11,016 nt of DNA from Candidatus Auribacterota bacterium (GTDB taxonomy: Bacteria; Auribacterota; JAFGBW01), in assembly GCA_016932965.1 (NCBI GenBank), contig JAFGBW010000053.1, positions 1-11,016 of the forward strand. The letters are read 5' to 3'. Under the pieces are notes generated by a model. The model did not search any database. It saw only the letters and a program-made list of their open reading frames with translations, and was not told the origin of the DNA. This document shows, in pieces, positions 4,181 to 11,016 of this stretch (position 1 is its first letter; each line of letters opens with the position of its first letter). The position numbers were made by a program, and so were the translations under genes.

Positions 4181-4209
4181 TTTACTTTCATCATGAATCA
4201 TGCTATCAT
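4181..4209 (+). promoter_or_regulatory. Sigma70-like promoter upstream of the coiled-coil gene and glycan cluster
   Basis: TTTACT at 4181-4186 (four of six -35 bases) and TATCAT at 4204-4209 (five of six -10 bases) are separated by an ideal 17-base spacer. Transcription would start near 4216, about 20 bases before the ATG at 4236. This supports 4236 rather than the ATG at 4200, which would lie upstream of that start point. The call rests on sequence match and position only. Confidence 0.4.
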
Positions 4210-4235
4210 ATGCCATATTATTTTCAGCCTGTGAT

Positions 4236-5048
4236 ATGAAAAAATTATTTTCCTGGATTACAAATCTTAATCAAAAACTTTTTCATTTATTGAAAACAGT
4301 CAAGGTCAAAATCCGACTCCGCAGACTCCAGAGACAGATCAATCAGGAATACACCAGCCTCGGCAAAGAAATTGATCATAGAGACGAAAAGTCCTCCGCA
4401 CGTTACGGTATCCCCCTTGCTCAATTGAAACAGAATCACGCTTCTGCCATCACGGAACTGGAAAAAACAAAAGAAACCGTGACATGGAAGATCCATGATT
4501 TTGAATCAACGCGCCAGGAATATCTTGGTTTCATTTCTCAGTCCGAAGAAAAGGTAACCCAATTAAAAATCCTTTTGAAAAATCTCCAAATCCGTCTTCG
4601 TGAAAACAAAAAAAAATTAGACCTGAAAATGGCCTTAGAAAAGAACAGCGCTAAAAAATTCATTGTTTTAACCATCTACAGAAGCAAAGAAGATTATAAC
4701 AAGACCCTTTTAGAGCTTCAAAAATTCAACCAGGAAGGAACCGGCGAAAAAAATAGGCTGGAGCAGGAATTACATGAAGCGAGGGACAAACTCTCTCAAC
4801 TGAAAAACAAATGGGAGAAACTGCAGGAACGGTTTTCCATCGAAATCCATCAAACCCGAAAAGAAGAAAAAACCATCATCAAAAAAAACAAGCAAGTGGA
4901 AGAAAAACTCAATAATCTTTATTGGCAATTGGGGTATCAAATAGATGAGGGGAATGCGTACCCGTCATCTCTTTTGTCTTATCAGAATAGAATCCGTATC
5001 ATAAAAGAAGCCATTATCAGGGAGAAAGACAGCTTAAGCTATAAATAA
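4236..5048 (+). CDS. Predicted coiled-coil protein of unknown function
   Basis: I do not recognise a named family. From the ATG at 4236 the product has 270 residues and is rich in Lys, Glu, Gln and Leu. Residues about 25-235 are mostly helix-forming with leucine/isoleucine spacing typical of long coiled coils (for example LEQELHEARDKLSQLKNKWEKLQ). The N-terminus (MKKLFSWITNLNQKLFHLLK) is amphipathic and basic and might touch the membrane, but there is no clear signal peptide or transmembrane segment. An ATG at 4200 would add 12 hydrophobic residues ending in a Cys that only superficially resemble a lipoprotein signal; it has no basic N-region and precedes the predicted transcription start. 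No good ribosome binding site is seen for either start. An A9 run lies at 4608-4616. The next gene starts 2 bases after the stop, so the two are probably co-translated. A scaffold or chain-length role in the downstream glycan pathway is conjecture. Confidence 0.72.
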   Translation: MKKLFSWITNLNQKLFHLLKTVKVKIRLRRLQRQINQEYTSLGKEIDHRDEKSSARYGIPLAQLKQNHASAITELEKTKETVTWKIHDFESTRQEYLGFISQSEEKVTQLKILLKNLQIRLRENKKKLDLKMALEKNSAKKFIVLTIYRSKEDYNKTLLELQKFNQEGTGEKNRLEQELHEARDKLSQLKNKWEKLQERFSIEIHQTRKEEKTIIKKNKQVEEKLNNLYWQLGYQIDEGNAYPSSLLSYQNRIRIIKEAIIREKDSLSYK

Positions 5049-5050
5049 AA

Positions 5051-5521
5051 ATGCATGCTGCTAATGATAAATCAAATCCAGTGTCTGCGAACGGATTTTT
5101 CTTTCAATTATCTGTTGCTTCTTTTTCTCCGGAAGACGTGATGCAAGAAATCCGCGAGGAAATCAAGACAAGACAAGCTCTCGGCGTTTACGACCATGCC
5201 GACTTGTCCCGGGTACTTTCTCTTGAATTGAAAGATATGAAAGGAACTGATCATGCTTTGGAATATTATCTGAAAGCCATCCGACGCTCATGGGCCGTGG
5301 ATATCAATGATTTTGACATTCCTTCAAAGGGGGGAACCCTGACTCAACAATTGGTTTTATTGAAAAAAATCATCTGGAAATGTTTAAAATTTTATACTTA
5401 CCGCCTTTTTTCCCAGCAAAGAGAATTCAATTCACAACTTAGCAACACCTTGATCGCGATGCATAAAGATTACGAAAAAAAAATCCGGGAATTAGAAAAA
5501 AAAATAAAGATGTTGAATTGA
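5051..5521 (+). CDS. Small glycan-cluster protein, copy 1 (unassigned domain with coiled-coil tail)
   Basis: A 156-residue protein clearly paralogous to the one at 6970-7422. Two blocks are nearly identical between them: YYLKAIRRSWAVDIND (about 72-87) and KKIIWKCLKFYTYRLF followed by SQQREFNSQ (about 105-129). A charged helical tail (YEKKIRELEKKIKML) follows and looks like a coiled coil. From family knowledge, a similar pattern (an RS-x-P-like segment, then basic-aromatic helix, then QQ..FN and a coiled coil) occurs N-terminal to methyltransferase or glycosyltransferase domains in polysaccharide clusters. Here it stands alone with no catalytic domain. There is no signal peptide; the aromatic-basic helix at 105-120 might contact the membrane. 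It starts 2 bases after the coiled-coil gene without its own strong ribosome binding site. Two A9 runs (5475-5483, 5496-5504) lie near its 3' end. Its partner glycosyltransferase is 353 bases downstream. Coding status is well supported; the function is unknown. Confidence 0.82.
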   Translation: MHAANDKSNPVSANGFFFQLSVASFSPEDVMQEIREEIKTRQALGVYDHADLSRVLSLELKDMKGTDHALEYYLKAIRRSWAVDINDFDIPSKGGTLTQQLVLLKKIIWKCLKFYTYRLFSQQREFNSQLSNTLIAMHKDYEKKIRELEKKIKMLN

Positions 5522-5548
5522 GGTTTAAAAATAATGATTAACATGAAA

Positions 5549-5629
5549 ATGTCCGGCTTAAAAATAAAGAAATAACGTAAAACACAATAAAATAGAGGGA
5601 TTGATTAAAAATAAAAGGAAGCCGGACAT
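5549..5629. repeat. Perfect 11-bp inverted repeat pair
   Basis: ATGTCCGGCTT at 5549-5559 is repeated as its exact reverse complement AAGCCGGACAT at 5619-5629, with 59 A/T-rich bases between. The GC-rich arms stand out sharply from the surrounding sequence. They could be the terminal inverted repeats of an 81-base miniature element or the stem of a long RNA hairpin. There is no run of Ts immediately after the right arm, so this is not a typical terminator. Confidence 0.6.
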
Positions 5630-5735
5630 AGAATTAAGAATTGAGAATCAAGAATTTTAAAAGAAACATCTTCGACTGTTGTAAGGGATGAAGGCCGAAG
5701 GCCGGAACAATACTGAATTCTCAATTCTGAATTCT
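5630..5735. repeat. Inverted arrays of a degenerate GAATTNA heptamer
   Basis: Bases 5630-5656 read as about four 7-base units (GAATTAA, GAATTGA, GAATCAA, GAATTTT). The reverse complement of 5709-5735 reads similarly (GAATTCA, GAATTGA, GAATTCA). The two 27-base arms match at 23 positions as an inverted repeat. The 52-base core between them has a direct GAAGGCC GAAGGCC doublet at its right side. Heptamer arrays of this sort are known as dispersed short tandem repeats in several bacterial groups, and the arrangement also fits a miniature transposable element. Confidence 0.6.
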
Positions 5736-5874
5736 TTAACACATCGCATAAAGAAAAAAACTGAAAATAGCATAATACAATCATTAAAAAATAAACCGGA
5801 CAGCAGTGAATCTAAATGATACTCCATTTTACACGAACTGAGCTTATCAAGCATTTTTAATAAATACAAAACAT

Positions 5875-6957
5875 ATGAACAGATCCATTCACCAGCTATT
5901 ACCCTCGGCAAGAATGGGGGATGCCATCACCCAATATGCGCTGGAACTGCAAAAAATCATACGATTAAAGGGATGGGATTCCCGACTTTTTGCACCGGAT
6001 GGAGAAATCGGGAAAGAACTGTTAAAAACAGTTCAATCCCAGAAAACCTTACCGGAAAGTCTGGCCTCAACGGACCTGCTGATTTATCATTATTCCATTG
6101 CTTCTCCAGCTACGGACGTCTATCGCCATGCCCTTTGCCGTAAAATGATATGTTATCACAATATCACTCCGGCCGTTTTTTTTCTCCCTTTTTCCGATAG
6201 CCATGCCTTCCTCGCAAGACAAGGACGGGAAGAATTGAAACAATTGATACCAATAACAGACCTGGCCACAGCCGTATCCCATTTCAATGCAAATGAACTT
6301 ATGGATATGGGATTCAAATCAGTTGAAGTGATCCCATTGATTATTCCCTCGGATTATCGCAACACAAAACCGGACAGCGCGATCCTGAATGAAATGAATG
6401 ACGGGAAAAAAAACATTCTATTCGTGGGAAGAATGGCCCCCAATAAACGTTTCGAAGATCTGCTTCAGGTTTTTTATTATTTTCATGCCGGGAATTCTTC
6501 ATCCCGATTGATCCTGGCCGGTCCTGTAGAAATAGAAAAATATCATGTTCAGGTTAAAGACTGGATTCAAAAATTGGAATTGACCGAACATGTTCTCATT
6601 ACTGGCAGGATCATTTTGCCTAAACTCATAGCTCATTATCAAACTGCTCACGCTTTTTTATGTTTATCCGAACACGAAGGCTTTTGCCTTCCTCTTCTGG
6701 AGGCTATGGCTTATTCTATTCCTGTATTTGCACTGGAAAGAGCCGGAGTCCCGGAAACACTGGAGAAAACCGGCGTTTTAATTAAAAAACTGGATCATGC
6801 ACTCATTGCAGAATTGTTGAGAACTGTGTTGGATCAACCGGAATTGATCAGGGAAATTGTTGAAAATCAGAAAAAACGACTTGAAAAATTCAATCAAACT
6901 GTTTTAAGTGCTAGACTGTCTCATTGCCTAAACATTGTTTTCGGACAGCCTGATTAA
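5875..6957 (+). CDS. GT4-type glycosyltransferase, copy 1
   Basis: Probable retaining glycosyltransferase of GT-B fold that transfers a sugar from a nucleotide-sugar donor during surface-polysaccharide synthesis, acting on the cytoplasmic side. The 360-residue product has the family length. The N-terminal half carries the subgroup's SIHQL, GDAITQYALEL, LLIYHYSI and CYHNITP blocks. The donor-binding C-terminal half carries ILFVGRMAPNKRFEDLL (181-197) and the EX7E motif E268-GFCLPLL-E276 of GT4 enzymes. No transmembrane segment or signal peptide is visible. It is a clear paralogue of the protein at 7419-8534, with about half the aligned residues identical by eye and all key motifs kept. The ATG at 5875 aligns with the copy 2 start but has no evident ribosome binding site, and the 353-base gap upstream breaks the coupling seen in copy 2. 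The small-protein gene copy 2 starts 12 bases after the stop. The donor sugar is unknown. Confidence 0.92.
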   Translation: MNRSIHQLLPSARMGDAITQYALELQKIIRLKGWDSRLFAPDGEIGKELLKTVQSQKTLPESLASTDLLIYHYSIASPATDVYRHALCRKMICYHNITPAVFFLPFSDSHAFLARQGREELKQLIPITDLATAVSHFNANELMDMGFKSVEVIPLIIPSDYRNTKPDSAILNEMNDGKKNILFVGRMAPNKRFEDLLQVFYYFHAGNSSSRLILAGPVEIEKYHVQVKDWIQKLELTEHVLITGRIILPKLIAHYQTAHAFLCLSEHEGFCLPLLEAMAYSIPVFALERAGVPETLEKTGVLIKKLDHALIAELLRTVLDQPELIREIVENQKKRLEKFNQTVLSARLSHCLNIVFGQPD

Positions 6958-6969
6958 CAAGGAAAATCC

Positions 6970-7422
6970 ATGTCAGAAGCATTTTTTGAAATTAAAAATT
7001 GTTCTGTGACCGGCAGCCAGATCATGGCTGAAATCCAACGCAGAATAAAAGAAAAAGAAGACCAGGGCATTTATCAAAAATATTCGCTTTCCCGGTCCGT
7101 TCAGTTTGAATGGAAAGAAGTCTCGGATGAAACTCAGTTTTTGGATTATTATTTAAAAACCATCAGGCGTTCATGGGCGGTTGATATCAATGAGTTTGAG
7201 ATACCTAAGAAAAAAGGCCTCAAAGGAAAAATCGAATTGCTTTTTAAAAAAATCATCTGGAAAAGTCTCAAATTTTACACTTACCGGCTGTTTTCGCAGC
7301 AGCGGGAATTCAATTCCCAGGCAGCGCACACTCTCCTTCTCCTCCACCAGGATTATACGGAAAAAATCAAGAAACTTGAAACTGAGCTCAAGGCCGTGGA
7401 GAAAACCGCGGACACCAGATGA
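6970..7422 (+). CDS. Small glycan-cluster protein, copy 2 (unassigned domain with coiled-coil tail)
   Basis: A 150-residue paralogue of the protein at 5051-5521. It shares YYLKTIRRSWAVDINEFEIP (60-79) and KKIIWKSLKFYTYRLF followed by SQQREFNSQ (93-117) with only a few changes. The N-terminus and the linker (PKKKGLKGKIELLF versus PSKGGTLTQQLVLL) have diverged. A charged helical tail (YTEKIKKLETELKAVEKT) follows. The very strong conservation of the two blocks against diverged surroundings points to a conserved contact surface. AAGG at 6959-6962 is a reasonable ribosome binding site for the ATG at 6970, and the gene starts 12 bases after the first glycosyltransferase. Its stop overlaps the start of the second glycosyltransferase (ATGA, 7419-7422), so the two products are probably made in fixed proportion and may act together. 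No catalytic domain is recognised. Confidence 0.87.
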   Translation: MSEAFFEIKNCSVTGSQIMAEIQRRIKEKEDQGIYQKYSLSRSVQFEWKEVSDETQFLDYYLKTIRRSWAVDINEFEIPKKKGLKGKIELLFKKIIWKSLKFYTYRLFSQQREFNSQAAHTLLLLHQDYTEKIKKLETELKAVEKTADTR

Positions 7423-8534
7423 TCACCCGTTCCATTCATCAGCTGATAGCCGGAGCAGGAACTGGGGACGCCATCAGCAATTATGCCTTTGAAATCCGTT
7501 CCATCCTGAAAAAGGCCGGATTCCTTTCCTGTATATTTGCACCGGAACAACACATCGCCAGGGAATATAAAAACGGGGAAGTACTTCCCCTTTCCCGGTT
7601 TCCTCAAGATATTTCTCAGGAAGATATTCTTCTGTACCATTATTCCATCGGATCATCCGCCACGGATTTGTATAAAAAAACCAAATGCAAAAAAATGCTT
7701 TGTTACCATAACATCACTCCGCCGCATTATTTTAAAAATCTCTCAGAAAAACAAATGTATGTTCTGGAACAGGGGAGAGAGGAACTAAAAGGCCTTTCAG
7801 TCATGACAGATCTCCCAACAGCGGTTTCCCATTTTAACAGTATGGAACTGGTTGAGATGGGTTTCTCAAAACCTCAAGTAATTCCTTTGATTGTGGGAAA
7901 GGATTATTTGCGGTCCAAACCCAATTCCTCAATTTTCAATCGGTTCGATGACGGAAAAACAAACATTCTGTTCGTCGGAAGAATGGTCCCAAACAAACGC
8001 TTTGAAGATCTGATTAAAACTTTCTATTTTTACAGAAAAACAATCCGTCCAGCGTCCCGGCTTATTCTAGCTGGATCCTACACAGGAAATGAAGTCTATT
8101 ATACTTATCTCCGTTCTTTGATTTTTGATCTGGATCTCATTGATTCAGTGATTGTTACAGGTCATATCGCACTTCAGGACCTGGTGGCTTATTATCAAAT
8201 CTCCCATGCTTTTTTATGCTTGTCAGAACACGAGGGCTTTTGCCTTCCGCTTATCGAAGCAATGTATTTTAATGTTCCTGTCTTTGCTCTGGATAAGGCG
8301 GCCATTCCGGAAACGTTGAAAGAAAGCGGGATACTGATAAAAAAGAACGACCCCAAAGCCATCGCAGAATTAATGGATCAGGTGTTATCCAATCGCGGAT
8401 TGGTCAGAGAAATATGCGAAAATCAAAAAAAAAGGCTGGAAAATTTCAATGAAAAGGCACTGACAGAGCGATTAGCTTTTTTATTAAAAATGTATTTTAA
8501 AGTGATTTTTAAAAGGAAATCTTTTGACAAATAG
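7419..8534 (+). CDS. GT4-type glycosyltransferase, copy 2
   Basis: A 371-residue GT-B fold glycosyltransferase paralogous to that at 5875-6957. Shared blocks are RSIHQL, GDAISNYAFEI, LLYHYSIGSSATD, CYHNITPPHYF, TAVSHFN, ILFVGRMVPNKRFEDL (183-198) and the EX7E motif E272-GFCLPLI-E280. Divergence lies mainly in the N-terminal acceptor-side loops and around 208-240, so the two copies may act on different acceptors or make successive linkages. The C-terminus has a basic extension (FKVIFKRKSFDK) that copy 1 lacks, possibly for membrane association. Translation is probably coupled to the preceding small-protein gene through the ATGA overlap. An A9 run lies at 8425-8433. The likely pathway is O-antigen, capsule or exopolysaccharide assembly, inferred from family and context. 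Confidence 0.93.
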   Translation: MITRSIHQLIAGAGTGDAISNYAFEIRSILKKAGFLSCIFAPEQHIAREYKNGEVLPLSRFPQDISQEDILLYHYSIGSSATDLYKKTKCKKMLCYHNITPPHYFKNLSEKQMYVLEQGREELKGLSVMTDLPTAVSHFNSMELVEMGFSKPQVIPLIVGKDYLRSKPNSSIFNRFDDGKTNILFVGRMVPNKRFEDLIKTFYFYRKTIRPASRLILAGSYTGNEVYYTYLRSLIFDLDLIDSVIVTGHIALQDLVAYYQISHAFLCLSEHEGFCLPLIEAMYFNVPVFALDKAAIPETLKESGILIKKNDPKAIAELMDQVLSNRGLVREICENQKKRLENFNEKALTERLAFLLKMYFKVIFKRKSFDK

Positions 8535-8622: not shown

Positions 8623-9555
8623 ATGAAGAAAGTATTATCAGGATTTTTTTTGGGAGTGCTTCTGATGGGATTGTCAGTCAATGGTTACGGTTACTCCGAG
8701 GAGAGAATGGATGGTTTAACCATTTGGGCCTCCGGAGGATATCATGATGGATCGATGAATTTCCGTGTCAGCGATGCGGGAGTATCCCGATCTGAATTAG
8801 ATTATGAAATGGATGGGATGTATTTCACCGCCGGCGTACATTATCAATTTGTTCATTCCAACGTGCCTAAACTCTCGATGACTGCGGTTGGAACCGTTTC
8901 CAGACACTTGGAAGGAACCGCCACTGATTCAGACTGGCTAACTTATTATTCACCGGATCTTTGGATCTATTCTAAATCCGATATTGATACGGATGAAGAA
9001 AAATATGACCTCAACCTGGGATATGAATTCCTCAATATCAAGGACGGTAAATTTAAACTGAATCTGCTGGGCGGCTATTACTGGAACAGTTATAAAGTCA
9101 AAGATTATGACGTAGACACACTCATTTACGATTATGAGTATATAGATGTAACGACCGCTGGCAAAGCCGCCTCTTATGATGCCAAATTCAGGGGATATTA
9201 CATCGGTTTGGACGGCGCTTTTAAAATCAATGAGCATTGGATCATCAACGCCAATTTCAAAGGCGTTCCGGACATCAGGGCTAAAGCCACTGGAAAATGG
9301 GTCTTGAGGGATTTCTATTTTAAACAGGATGCCACAGGCAAAGGATATGAAATGAGCCTGGGCACCACTTTCATCCCTAAGGAGAACTGGGCGTTTGAAT
9401 TAACCGTGACAAAAACTTCCTTTAACGTGGAAGGAGATGACGATTATTTTAAACTCACTGATTATACCTCTGGAACCTATCTAGGCACAACAAATCTGGA
9501 TTTTCTCAAACTGGATACTTATACCACTGAAATAAAGGTCAAGTATCTGTTTTAA
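8623..9555 (+). CDS. Probable outer-membrane beta-barrel protein
   Basis: A 310-residue secreted protein of no named family that I recognise. It begins with a clear signal peptide (two Lys, hydrophobic core LSGFFLGVLLMGLSV, likely cleavage after GYG at about residue 23). The mature part is full of alternating hydrophobic/polar strands rich in Tyr, Phe, Gly and Asp, such as MYFTAGVHYQF, KFKLNLLGGYYW, FRGYYIGLDGAFKI, GYEMSLGTTF and TTEIKVKYLF. It ends in Phe, the usual last residue recognised by the BAM insertion machinery. This pattern fits a barrel of about 10-12 strands. It has a strong ribosome binding site (AGGAG at 8611-8615), a promoter-like site upstream and a terminator immediately downstream, so it is probably a single-gene unit. 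It could be a porin, an adhesin-like barrel or a structural protein; a link to polysaccharide export is possible only from location. Confidence 0.8.
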   Translation: MKKVLSGFFLGVLLMGLSVNGYGYSEERMDGLTIWASGGYHDGSMNFRVSDAGVSRSELDYEMDGMYFTAGVHYQFVHSNVPKLSMTAVGTVSRHLEGTATDSDWLTYYSPDLWIYSKSDIDTDEEKYDLNLGYEFLNIKDGKFKLNLLGGYYWNSYKVKDYDVDTLIYDYEYIDVTTAGKAASYDAKFRGYYIGLDGAFKINEHWIINANFKGVPDIRAKATGKWVLRDFYFKQDATGKGYEMSLGTTFIPKENWAFELTVTKTSFNVEGDDDYFKLTDYTSGTYLGTTNLDFLKLDTYTTEIKVKYLF

Positions 9556-9633: not shown

Positions 9634-11016
9634 TCAGATATCAAATGATCCCAGGATGACATGAGTTTCTTTCTTAGTTTGCCTTTCTATTTTCAACTGC
9701 TTACCTGAATCAGGATGCCAGATACCTGTTTTGATAAAAACCTTTCCGGTAACAAAGACAGGAATCCAGACCGTTCTTTCCATGAGAACTCTCATATTAT
9801 CCTGCCAGAGAGATGTCGGTTTTCGGAAATGTTCCATTTTCACATCTCCCTGAAATAAGACCCTTCCCTTGTCATCGCAATAATGGATAAATAGATAATA
9901 ATCTTTTTCCAGGGAGACCAAAGGAAGCAATTCCAAGAACAAAGTGACGCTTCGTTTGTCTCTATCGGTTTGAAAATAAAACGCGGTCATTTTCAATTTA
10001 TCTCCAAAAACAAAGGAAGACGGCACGGCTTGCGGAAATATATTTTTTAATAAAGGATATGGATAATAGAATCGCCCTGCATCGACAGGAAGAATGTCAT
10101 TCAATTGCAGTCCGTTCCAGTACAGTAAAGACCGGGTATGATTCGGGGGAATGTCATATAAATCTCGAAATAAATATGACTTTTTCTGAAAAGGGATATG
10201 GCATGCATTCAACTTATTTTCAATGGATCTAGCATGTGTTTTTTCAGCGATAAGAACATGGTTTTTTGAAAAATTGAGCGCAACTCCACAACTTAAATTA
10301 GGATTAGGCAAACCGCAATTATTGACCGATTGATTGGAGATGAAATCCACAGGAAAACCATGCAAATGGAAATAATTGCACCACCAGTGGTCACCAACAA
10401 TCACCTTGTTCCTGTGATTTTCAAATAGAGAAGCGATGATCTCTGCACGTTCCCTTGTTTTCCTATCTGACGAAATTTTCTCCATCCTTTTTACCAGAAG
10501 CATCTCGCAAATGGAGAGCGCATTCTTTCTCTTTTCAACATCAAAGATGATTTCGCAATACTTGATTCCTGGCCGATCCGGCAAAACGATTTCCATTCTC
10601 GGTTTAACCAGTTTTATAAAAGGATGCGCTTCAGACCAAAAAACCGGCTGACCCTCTTTAGTCTGAAAAACGGTTTCCCAATCACGATTGTTCCGGCTAA
10701 CCCGAATGGAAAACTCATCCGGAGAATTGTCCGCTTTCTCAGGGAACAATACGATCTTATGCAAGGATTCCGTTTCATTGAATTCAATGAACACACTCCC
10801 ATGTTTAACCGCTTCCGGATCAAGACTCCAAAAGGAGGTGATGTTATTATCTGTCAAATAAGAAGATCCAAAATGATCTGGTGAGACCAAAACTCGATAT
10901 GGAGTGATCAACTCTTCTGCATATTCCGTTTTAGAAAAATCATAGCAAACAGGCATCCCCCCGACCATTTCCAGCCTGCATTGAACGCCTGCCATTTGAA
11001 AAAGTCCGGGATTGCC
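9634..11016 (-). CDS. C-terminal part of a discoidin-domain protein, probably a membrane glycosyltransferase-like protein (5' end outside window)
   Basis: The minus-strand frame ends at 9634 and is still open at the right edge. The first ATG is at 10995, but it has seven in-frame sense codons before it and no good ribosome binding site, so the gene probably starts outside the window. Counting from that Met, residues about 34-152 look like an F5/8 type C (discoidin) carbohydrate-binding-type fold: LTDNNITSFWS, then SVFIEFNETESLHKIVLFP and FSIRVSRNNRDWETVF. A helical stretch (RERAEIIASLFENH) and an alternating segment (VIVGDHWWCNYFHLHGFPVDFI) follow. The end (about 345-445) is beta-rich, with YYLFIHYCDDKGRVLFQGD, PTSLW and a final strand pair, KVFIKTGIWHPDSGKQLKI. 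This order resembles the soluble C-terminal region of large GT39-like membrane proteins, but no membrane segment lies in the visible part. The discoidin call is moderate; the overall identity is tentative. Confidence 0.6.
   Translation of the reverse strand, partial: GNPGLFQMAGVQCRLEMVGGMPVCYDFSKTEYAEELITPYRVLVSPDHFGSSYLTDNNITSFWSLDPEAVKHGSVFIEFNETESLHKIVLFPEKADNSPDEFSIRVSRNNRDWETVFQTKEGQPVFWSEAHPFIKLVKPRMEIVLPDRPGIKYCEIIFDVEKRKNALSICEMLLVKRMEKISSDRKTRERAEIIASLFENHRNKVIVGDHWWCNYFHLHGFPVDFISNQSVNNCGLPNPNLSCGVALNFSKNHVLIAEKTHARSIENKLNACHIPFQKKSYLFRDLYDIPPNHTRSLLYWNGLQLNDILPVDAGRFYYPYPLLKNIFPQAVPSSFVFGDKLKMTAFYFQTDRDKRSVTLFLELLPLVSLEKDYYLFIHYCDDKGRVLFQGDVKMEHFRKPTSLWQDNMRVLMERTVWIPVFVTGKVFIKTGIWHPDSGKQLKIERQTKKETHVILGSFDI

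Follow-up and report, generated by a model that had tools for sequence, protein, structure and literature searches.

GtfA-GtfB adhesin pairs consist of a GT4-family catalytic subunit and an obligate partner encoded next door. The Alg14-Alg13 split glycosyltransferases are two-gene enzymes with a membrane-anchoring, non-catalytic partner. To our knowledge, the GT4 enzymes PimA, WaaG, BshA and HepE work without a recognised partner. In O-antigen synthesis by the ABC pathway, Wzm and Wzt form the exporter. ALG13/14 has been described as a heterodimeric transferase (PMC9527342). WbdD combines a coiled-coil ruler, an amphipathic helix and a recruitment site for the polymerase (PMC11231755).

Here we describe a small protein (SM) encoded upstream of a GT4 glycosyltransferase (GT) in a Candidatus Auribacterota bacterium. 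The window, which is the whole stretch of 11,016 nucleotides that was analysed, is contig 111 of a 3.1-Mb assembly with 300 contigs and about 93% completeness.

The duplicated SM-GT4 module and its flanks

As listed in Table 1, four genes lie in the order SM-GT-SM-GT, all in one orientation. A sequence-only reading had described 5051-8534 as a two-gene module duplicated in the same order, which these open reading frames confirm. It had also held that two blocks of the small protein were kept while the rest diverged and that the glycosyltransferases kept their motifs, and both points stand. The two blocks are letter-identical in SM-a and SM-b, which share 50% identity overall (phmmer ~1e-44), and the DNA flanking both blocks is 82-84% identical between the copies. 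GT-a and GT-b are 52% identical (phmmer ~1e-121). The likeness within each pair of copies is far above chance. The Glycos_transf_1 C-terminal domain scored 100.4 bits in GT-a and 105.7 bits in GT-b against a Pfam cut-off of 26.4. Both have the EX7E motif (EGFCLPLLE in GT-a, EGFCLPLIE in GT-b) and the donor-phosphate R/K motif GR...NK (GRMAPNK and GRMVPNK). By Pfam both are full-length GT4s, with putative glycosyltransferase activity.

Table 1. Features of the SM-GT4 module in the window
Feature	Position	Strand	Basis
SM-a, 156-aa putative small helical partner protein, subfamily SM1	5051..5521	+	profile A1 match, E 3.7e-61
Dispersed repeat element between SM-a and GT-a	~5528..5817		~25 or more other genome sites, 70-92% identity; copies aligned
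GT-a, 360-aa putative GT4 glycosyltransferase, GT4w subgroup	5875..6957	+	Pfam Glycos_transf_1 1e-28; EX7E at residue 268
SM-b, 150-aa putative small helical partner protein, subfamily SM1	6970..7422	+	AlphaFold: three short helices and one 66-residue helix
GT-b, 371-aa putative GT4 glycosyltransferase, GT4w subgroup	7419..8534	+	Pfam Glycos_transf_1 2.4e-30; EX7E at residue 272
Conserved block RRSWAVDIN	SM-a 5282-5308; SM-b 7165-7191	+	D72, I73, D75, F76, I78 (nearly) invariant, alignment A2, 66 sequences
Conserved block KFYTYRLFSQQREFNSQ, inside predicted cationic interfacial helix	SM-a 5387-5437; SM-b 7270-7320	+	F102 Y103 T104 R106 Q110 Q111 N115 invariant, 66 sequences

The SM and GT genes of a pair are in different reading frames. 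SM-b and GT-b overlap by 4 nt, with the GT-b start codon over the SM-b stop (ATGA). The dispersed repeat accounts for the 353-nt distance between SM-a and GT-a. This repeat is roughly 250-290 bp long, is bounded by GTCCGG/CCGGAC and contains an inverted repeat (ATGTCCGGCTT...AAGCCGGACAT). The other sites in the genome hold full or partial copies, and in form the repeat resembles MITE or REP-type elements.

In maximum-likelihood trees the two window SMs are sisters (support 96/89) and so are the two window GTs (99); SM and GT were therefore duplicated together in the window lineage. Two Auribacterota MAGs of the same order (G001 and G002) have a single SM and tandem GTs, which lie next to the window copies in the trees. 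Their GT tandem had an origin separate from the window duplication.

Upstream of the module are rpmA, rplU and mutS, as read from the translations, so rplU-rpmA precedes the SM-GT pairs. In this genome obg lies apart from rplU-rpmA, on contig 106 (L169, 12547-16223), upstream of an MFS-like transporter gene and the genome's only close GT4b gene. Wzm homologues and a GT4b are found on contigs other than that of the window. An ORF at 4200-5048 encodes a 282-aa coiled-coil protein without a family match; its stop lies 2 nt ahead of the SM-a start, and it might share one transcript with SM-a. Downstream, 8623-9555 encodes a 310-aa outer-membrane barrel weakly similar to omptins and to the Protochlamydia Pom porin family. 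On the reverse strand, 9634-10995 encodes a 453-aa protein whose N-terminal part is F5/8 type C-like (galactose-binding), just below the Pfam cut-off.

Distribution, adjacency and co-inheritance

SM proteins (150-156 aa) gave no match above the cut-off in Pfam or NCBIfam. Searches with profiles built from 16-66 members found SM in 17 of 44 Auribacterota genomes and in 58 of 288 genomes of the phylum of Kiritimatiellae, Lentisphaerae and Verrucomicrobia, this sample being the phylum of one Kiritimatiellae MAG. Named SM loci come from Auribacterota and from these three groups; further contigs of the window's own phylum go under names like Euphemobacter and Erginobacter, and some are labelled PVC, Chlamydiae or only 'bacterium'. 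Phyla beyond the two sampled were covered by a pattern-based contig scan only, and Planctomycetota and Neomarinimicrobiota are represented by one SM record each, by record label alone. No plasmid-borne homologues were found by tblastn with one SM as query, and viral contigs had no SM homologues. A literature search on these phyla found no paper with the terms used.

A diverged subfamily, SM2, has the motif LLRYQHDRxxFQQNxIN and another N-terminus, which begins IxxGxDRxxxI. In a motif scan of the gathered loci, only SM2-type proteins were plausible further carriers of the conserved block. The block KLLKFYTYRLFSQQxxFN may resemble a stretch that, in other phyla, precedes the SAM-methyltransferase domain of proteins linked to Wzt. 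Candidate SM gene fusions, which were long ORFs in L102, L078, L124 and L060, proved to be upstream frame extensions without recognisable domains.

The small protein had been proposed to be a partner of its glycosyltransferase, a proposal to which SM homologues lying mostly away from glycosyltransferases would have been contrary. The opposite was found. Among the 77 SM1 loci whose downstream sequence extends for 500 nt or more, a GT4 gene lies directly downstream in 69 (66 GT4b and 3 GT4w); the spacing is at most 20 nt in 53 loci, and the genes abut or overlap in 42. A second sample, some of whose genomes are possibly shared with the first, gave 21 of 24 loci. SM2 immediately precedes GT4w at 17/17 loci (L163 6864-7322, L164 7915-8355, L165 3989-4420 and L176-L189), and many of these pairs share the 4-nt overlap seen in the window; SM2 follows Wzt in five of the 17. 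Outside the order of the window genome, the usual SM partner is GT4b; GT4w often follows GT4b and is then third in line. GT4w also occurs with no SM directly ahead of it, as the second GT of a tandem in L028 and in L216.

SM and GT4b are nearly always either present together or missing together. In the 288 genomes SM and GT4b were each found in 58, both in 57, one alone once each way and neither in 229, so that they agree in 57 of the 59 genomes having either (Jaccard 0.97; Fisher 3e-58, kinship ignored). The exceptions are G334, in which GT4b is cut by a contig end, and G291, which has SM without GT4b. Both genes are kept even where they are unlinked: in G046 some 25 kb of a single contig separates them and in G173 they are on different contigs, so the coupling is independent of linkage. 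Related genomes have much in common, and a control gene was therefore run, the Zn-ribbon neighbour of the pair in Kiritimatiellae. It was found in 83 genomes, 54 of them with SM (Jaccard 0.62). Of these 83 genomes, 53 have both SM and GT4b, 28 have neither, and 2 have one of the two alone. The argument from co-inheritance rests on these count tables and the control, since the p-values ignore relatedness. Of the 62 genomes with GT4w or SM, 53 have both. In the 44 Auribacterota genomes SM and GT4w were both found in 16, one alone once each way and neither in 26; by family, the counts were both in 8, GT only in 1 and neither in 8. The term 'obligate partner' used in the sequence-only reading thus holds in the sense of genetic coupling, and we regard functional coupling of SM and GT4 as very likely. 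Of the adaptor roles offered in that reading, the one at the membrane is a prediction and the one at the acceptor a conjecture.

Unassigned small ORFs are common in glycosyltransferase clusters, and SM could in principle be an unrelated small gene carried along in such clusters. The counts already contradict this reading: adjacency at SM1 and SM2 loci, co-inheritance that includes unlinked cases, and co-duplication all speak against it, and many pairs lie outside any GT cluster. We consider chance neighbourhood hardly credible.

The setting of the pair differs between the two phyla. In Auribacterota the order is Wzm-Wzt-SM-GT4, with Wzt upstream in 9/9 testable loci, and the Wzt_C carbohydrate-binding domain passes the cut-off in the tested Wzt proteins. 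In the other phylum Wzt was upstream of SM1 in 0/62 loci (2/25 in the second sample), and in Kiritimatiellae, Lentisphaerae and Verrucomicrobia the genes form a free-standing pair or trio among housekeeping genes. The Auribacterota order would fit SM as a ruler of chain length, or as a scaffold for assembly, in an O-antigen pathway of the ABC-exporter type, in which its coiled coil would space the GT4 polymerase from a terminator or from Wzt and SM would contact Wzt as much as GT4. WbdD, in which a coiled-coil ruler occurs together with an amphipathic helix and a site that recruits the polymerase, is a precedent (PMC11231755), and the 66-residue C-terminal helix predicted for SM is consistent with it. 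However, SM and GT4b are inseparable in the phylum with 0/62 loci, and the existence of exporter-free loci weakens the ruler reading. No checked SM gene has a terminator domain attached, and the SM helix continues for only about 30-40 residues beyond the membrane block. We therefore think a ruler role unlikely, though it deserves some weight.

In Kiritimatiellae a conserved block (L055, L068, L074 and L090) comprises a metallo-beta-lactamase-fold gene, assigned by sequence look, followed by SM, GT4b, the Zn-ribbon gene on the opposite strand and housekeeping genes. This block suggests a core rather than a strain-specific glycan function.

Predicted structure of SM and predicted contact with GT4

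SM has no significant PDB match by sequence, and none by fold for SM alone (Foldseek). In the AlphaFold model of SM-b, which is of moderate confidence (mean pLDDT 75.9, pTM 0.44), the long helix spans residues 84-149 and the invariant block lies within its first half. The alignment of 66 sequences has ten invariant columns: I78, K93, W97, F102, Y103, T104, R106, Q110, Q111 and N115. An 18-residue window in the block had a mean hydrophobic moment of 0.32, hydrophobicity of 0.69 and net charge of +4.7. The HeliQuest-type discriminant D averaged 1.85 and exceeded 1.34, the threshold for a lipid-binding helix, in 66/66 members. SM has no transmembrane-like stretch (maximum 19-residue Kyte-Doolittle average 0.69), and by inspection no secretion signal was recognised. 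The second half of the long helix has leucine/isoleucine heptad spacing, also by inspection.

The contact with GT4 was modelled from a relative (L061) whose SM and GT4b share one frame with a stop codon between them. The artificial read-through chain of 583 residues, with the stop read as a residue and a long disordered linker, gave pLDDT 89.5 and pTM 0.83, with 7 of 89 alignment rows paired. This is a prediction for the GT4b pair of a single relative. By arithmetic, a freely floating SM would give a pTM of about 0.66 from the 393 GT residues alone; the excess therefore indicates that SM is placed against the GT in the model, with an average expected error of about 5-6 Å. The GT4 part of the relatives matches the solved GT4 enzymes BshA, HepE, MshA, PimA and WaaG, and is predicted to fold as a complete GT-B enzyme. 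Both the SM-GT4 interface and the binding of SM to the membrane are predictions of these models.

The predicted packing on the GT, together with translational coupling and strict co-inheritance, would also fit a heterodimer in which SM is devoted to the folding or stability of GT4 and has no membrane role. We hold this to be improbable: the best-conserved part of SM is the cationic, aromatic-rich interfacial helix, in all members over the lipid-binding score, and such a helix would be superfluous for a purely cytosolic chaperone. The strict pairing and the invariant N and T residues of the block might instead suggest that SM is an acceptor or primer which is itself glycosylated by GT4. These residues, however, lie in a cationic amphipathic helix and not in a flexible Ser/Thr-rich stretch, SM has neither a recognised secretion signal nor a transmembrane segment, and the Auribacterota GT4s stand in O-antigen exporter clusters. 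An acceptor role seems to us very improbable.

Proposed role and comparison with known systems

We consider it rather likely that SM serves GT4 enzymes as a partner subunit that docks them at the membrane, acting as the membrane-proximal part of WbdD would without its catalytic domains. Of the accounts considered, a two-subunit GT4 enzyme is the simplest, with SM as the subunit that would bind GT4 and hold it at the inner membrane. SM would be the non-catalytic subunit of GT4-family (GT-B fold) enzymes that assemble envelope glycans on a lipid-linked acceptor. The N-terminal helices of SM would bind GT4, its invariant cationic, aromatic-rich helix (KKIIWKxLKFYTYRLFSQQxxFN) would sit in the inner-membrane interface, and its C-terminal coiled coil may oligomerise or space the complex. 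The soluble GT4 would thus be kept beside the acceptor and, in Auribacterota, also beside the Wzm/Wzt exporter. In the window, duplication of the whole module has left each of the two GT4 enzymes with an SM of its own. We infer docking on the acceptor as the role of SM; stabilising the enzyme and setting chain length are examples of roles that we consider less likely. Whether SM1 and SM2 represent an undescribed class of two-subunit GT4 enzymes is, in our judgement, an even call; in such a class, small all-helical membrane-docking subunits would have diversified with their GT4 partners and be inseparable from them across Auribacterota and Kiritimatiellae/Lentisphaerae/Verrucomicrobia, independently of an exporter.

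This account gives a testable role to a family that is outside Pfam and NCBIfam and is carried by many little-studied bacteria. Some GT4 enzymes may require a dedicated membrane subunit, and attempts to study GT4s from these phyla in a foreign host may fail without the small upstream gene. The free-standing pairs offer a simple system for studying how a soluble GT-B enzyme reaches a lipid-linked acceptor, and the conserved Kiritimatiellae pair among housekeeping genes points to an undescribed core envelope glycan.

The WbdD C-terminal region with WbdA (E. coli O9a and Klebsiella O3) belongs, like the Auribacterota SM loci, to an ABC-exporter pathway with a CBM-type Wzt. WbdD has an amphipathic membrane helix and a coiled coil, features that are predicted for SM too, and as a partner protein it recruits the polymerase glycosyltransferase (PMC11231755), as SM may do with GT4. 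In contrast to WbdD, SM has about 150 aa, no kinase or methyltransferase and no recognised sequence match to it; because the catalytic domains are missing, we place SM outside the WbdD family. The order of the helices is reversed, with the membrane block ahead of the coiled coil, and SM also occurs away from any exporter. In Alg13/14 one GT-B enzyme is split in halves, whereas the SM system would join a complete GT-B GT4 to an all-helical protein which, unlike Alg14, has no transmembrane anchor (Kyte-Doolittle maximum 0.69, as above). The partner in GtfA-GtfB pairs, GtfB, is a large GT-like protein, whereas SM is small and helical. The monotopic stand-alone GT4s PimA, WaaG, BshA and HepE are among the closest folds to the GT4 part (Z ~28-33).
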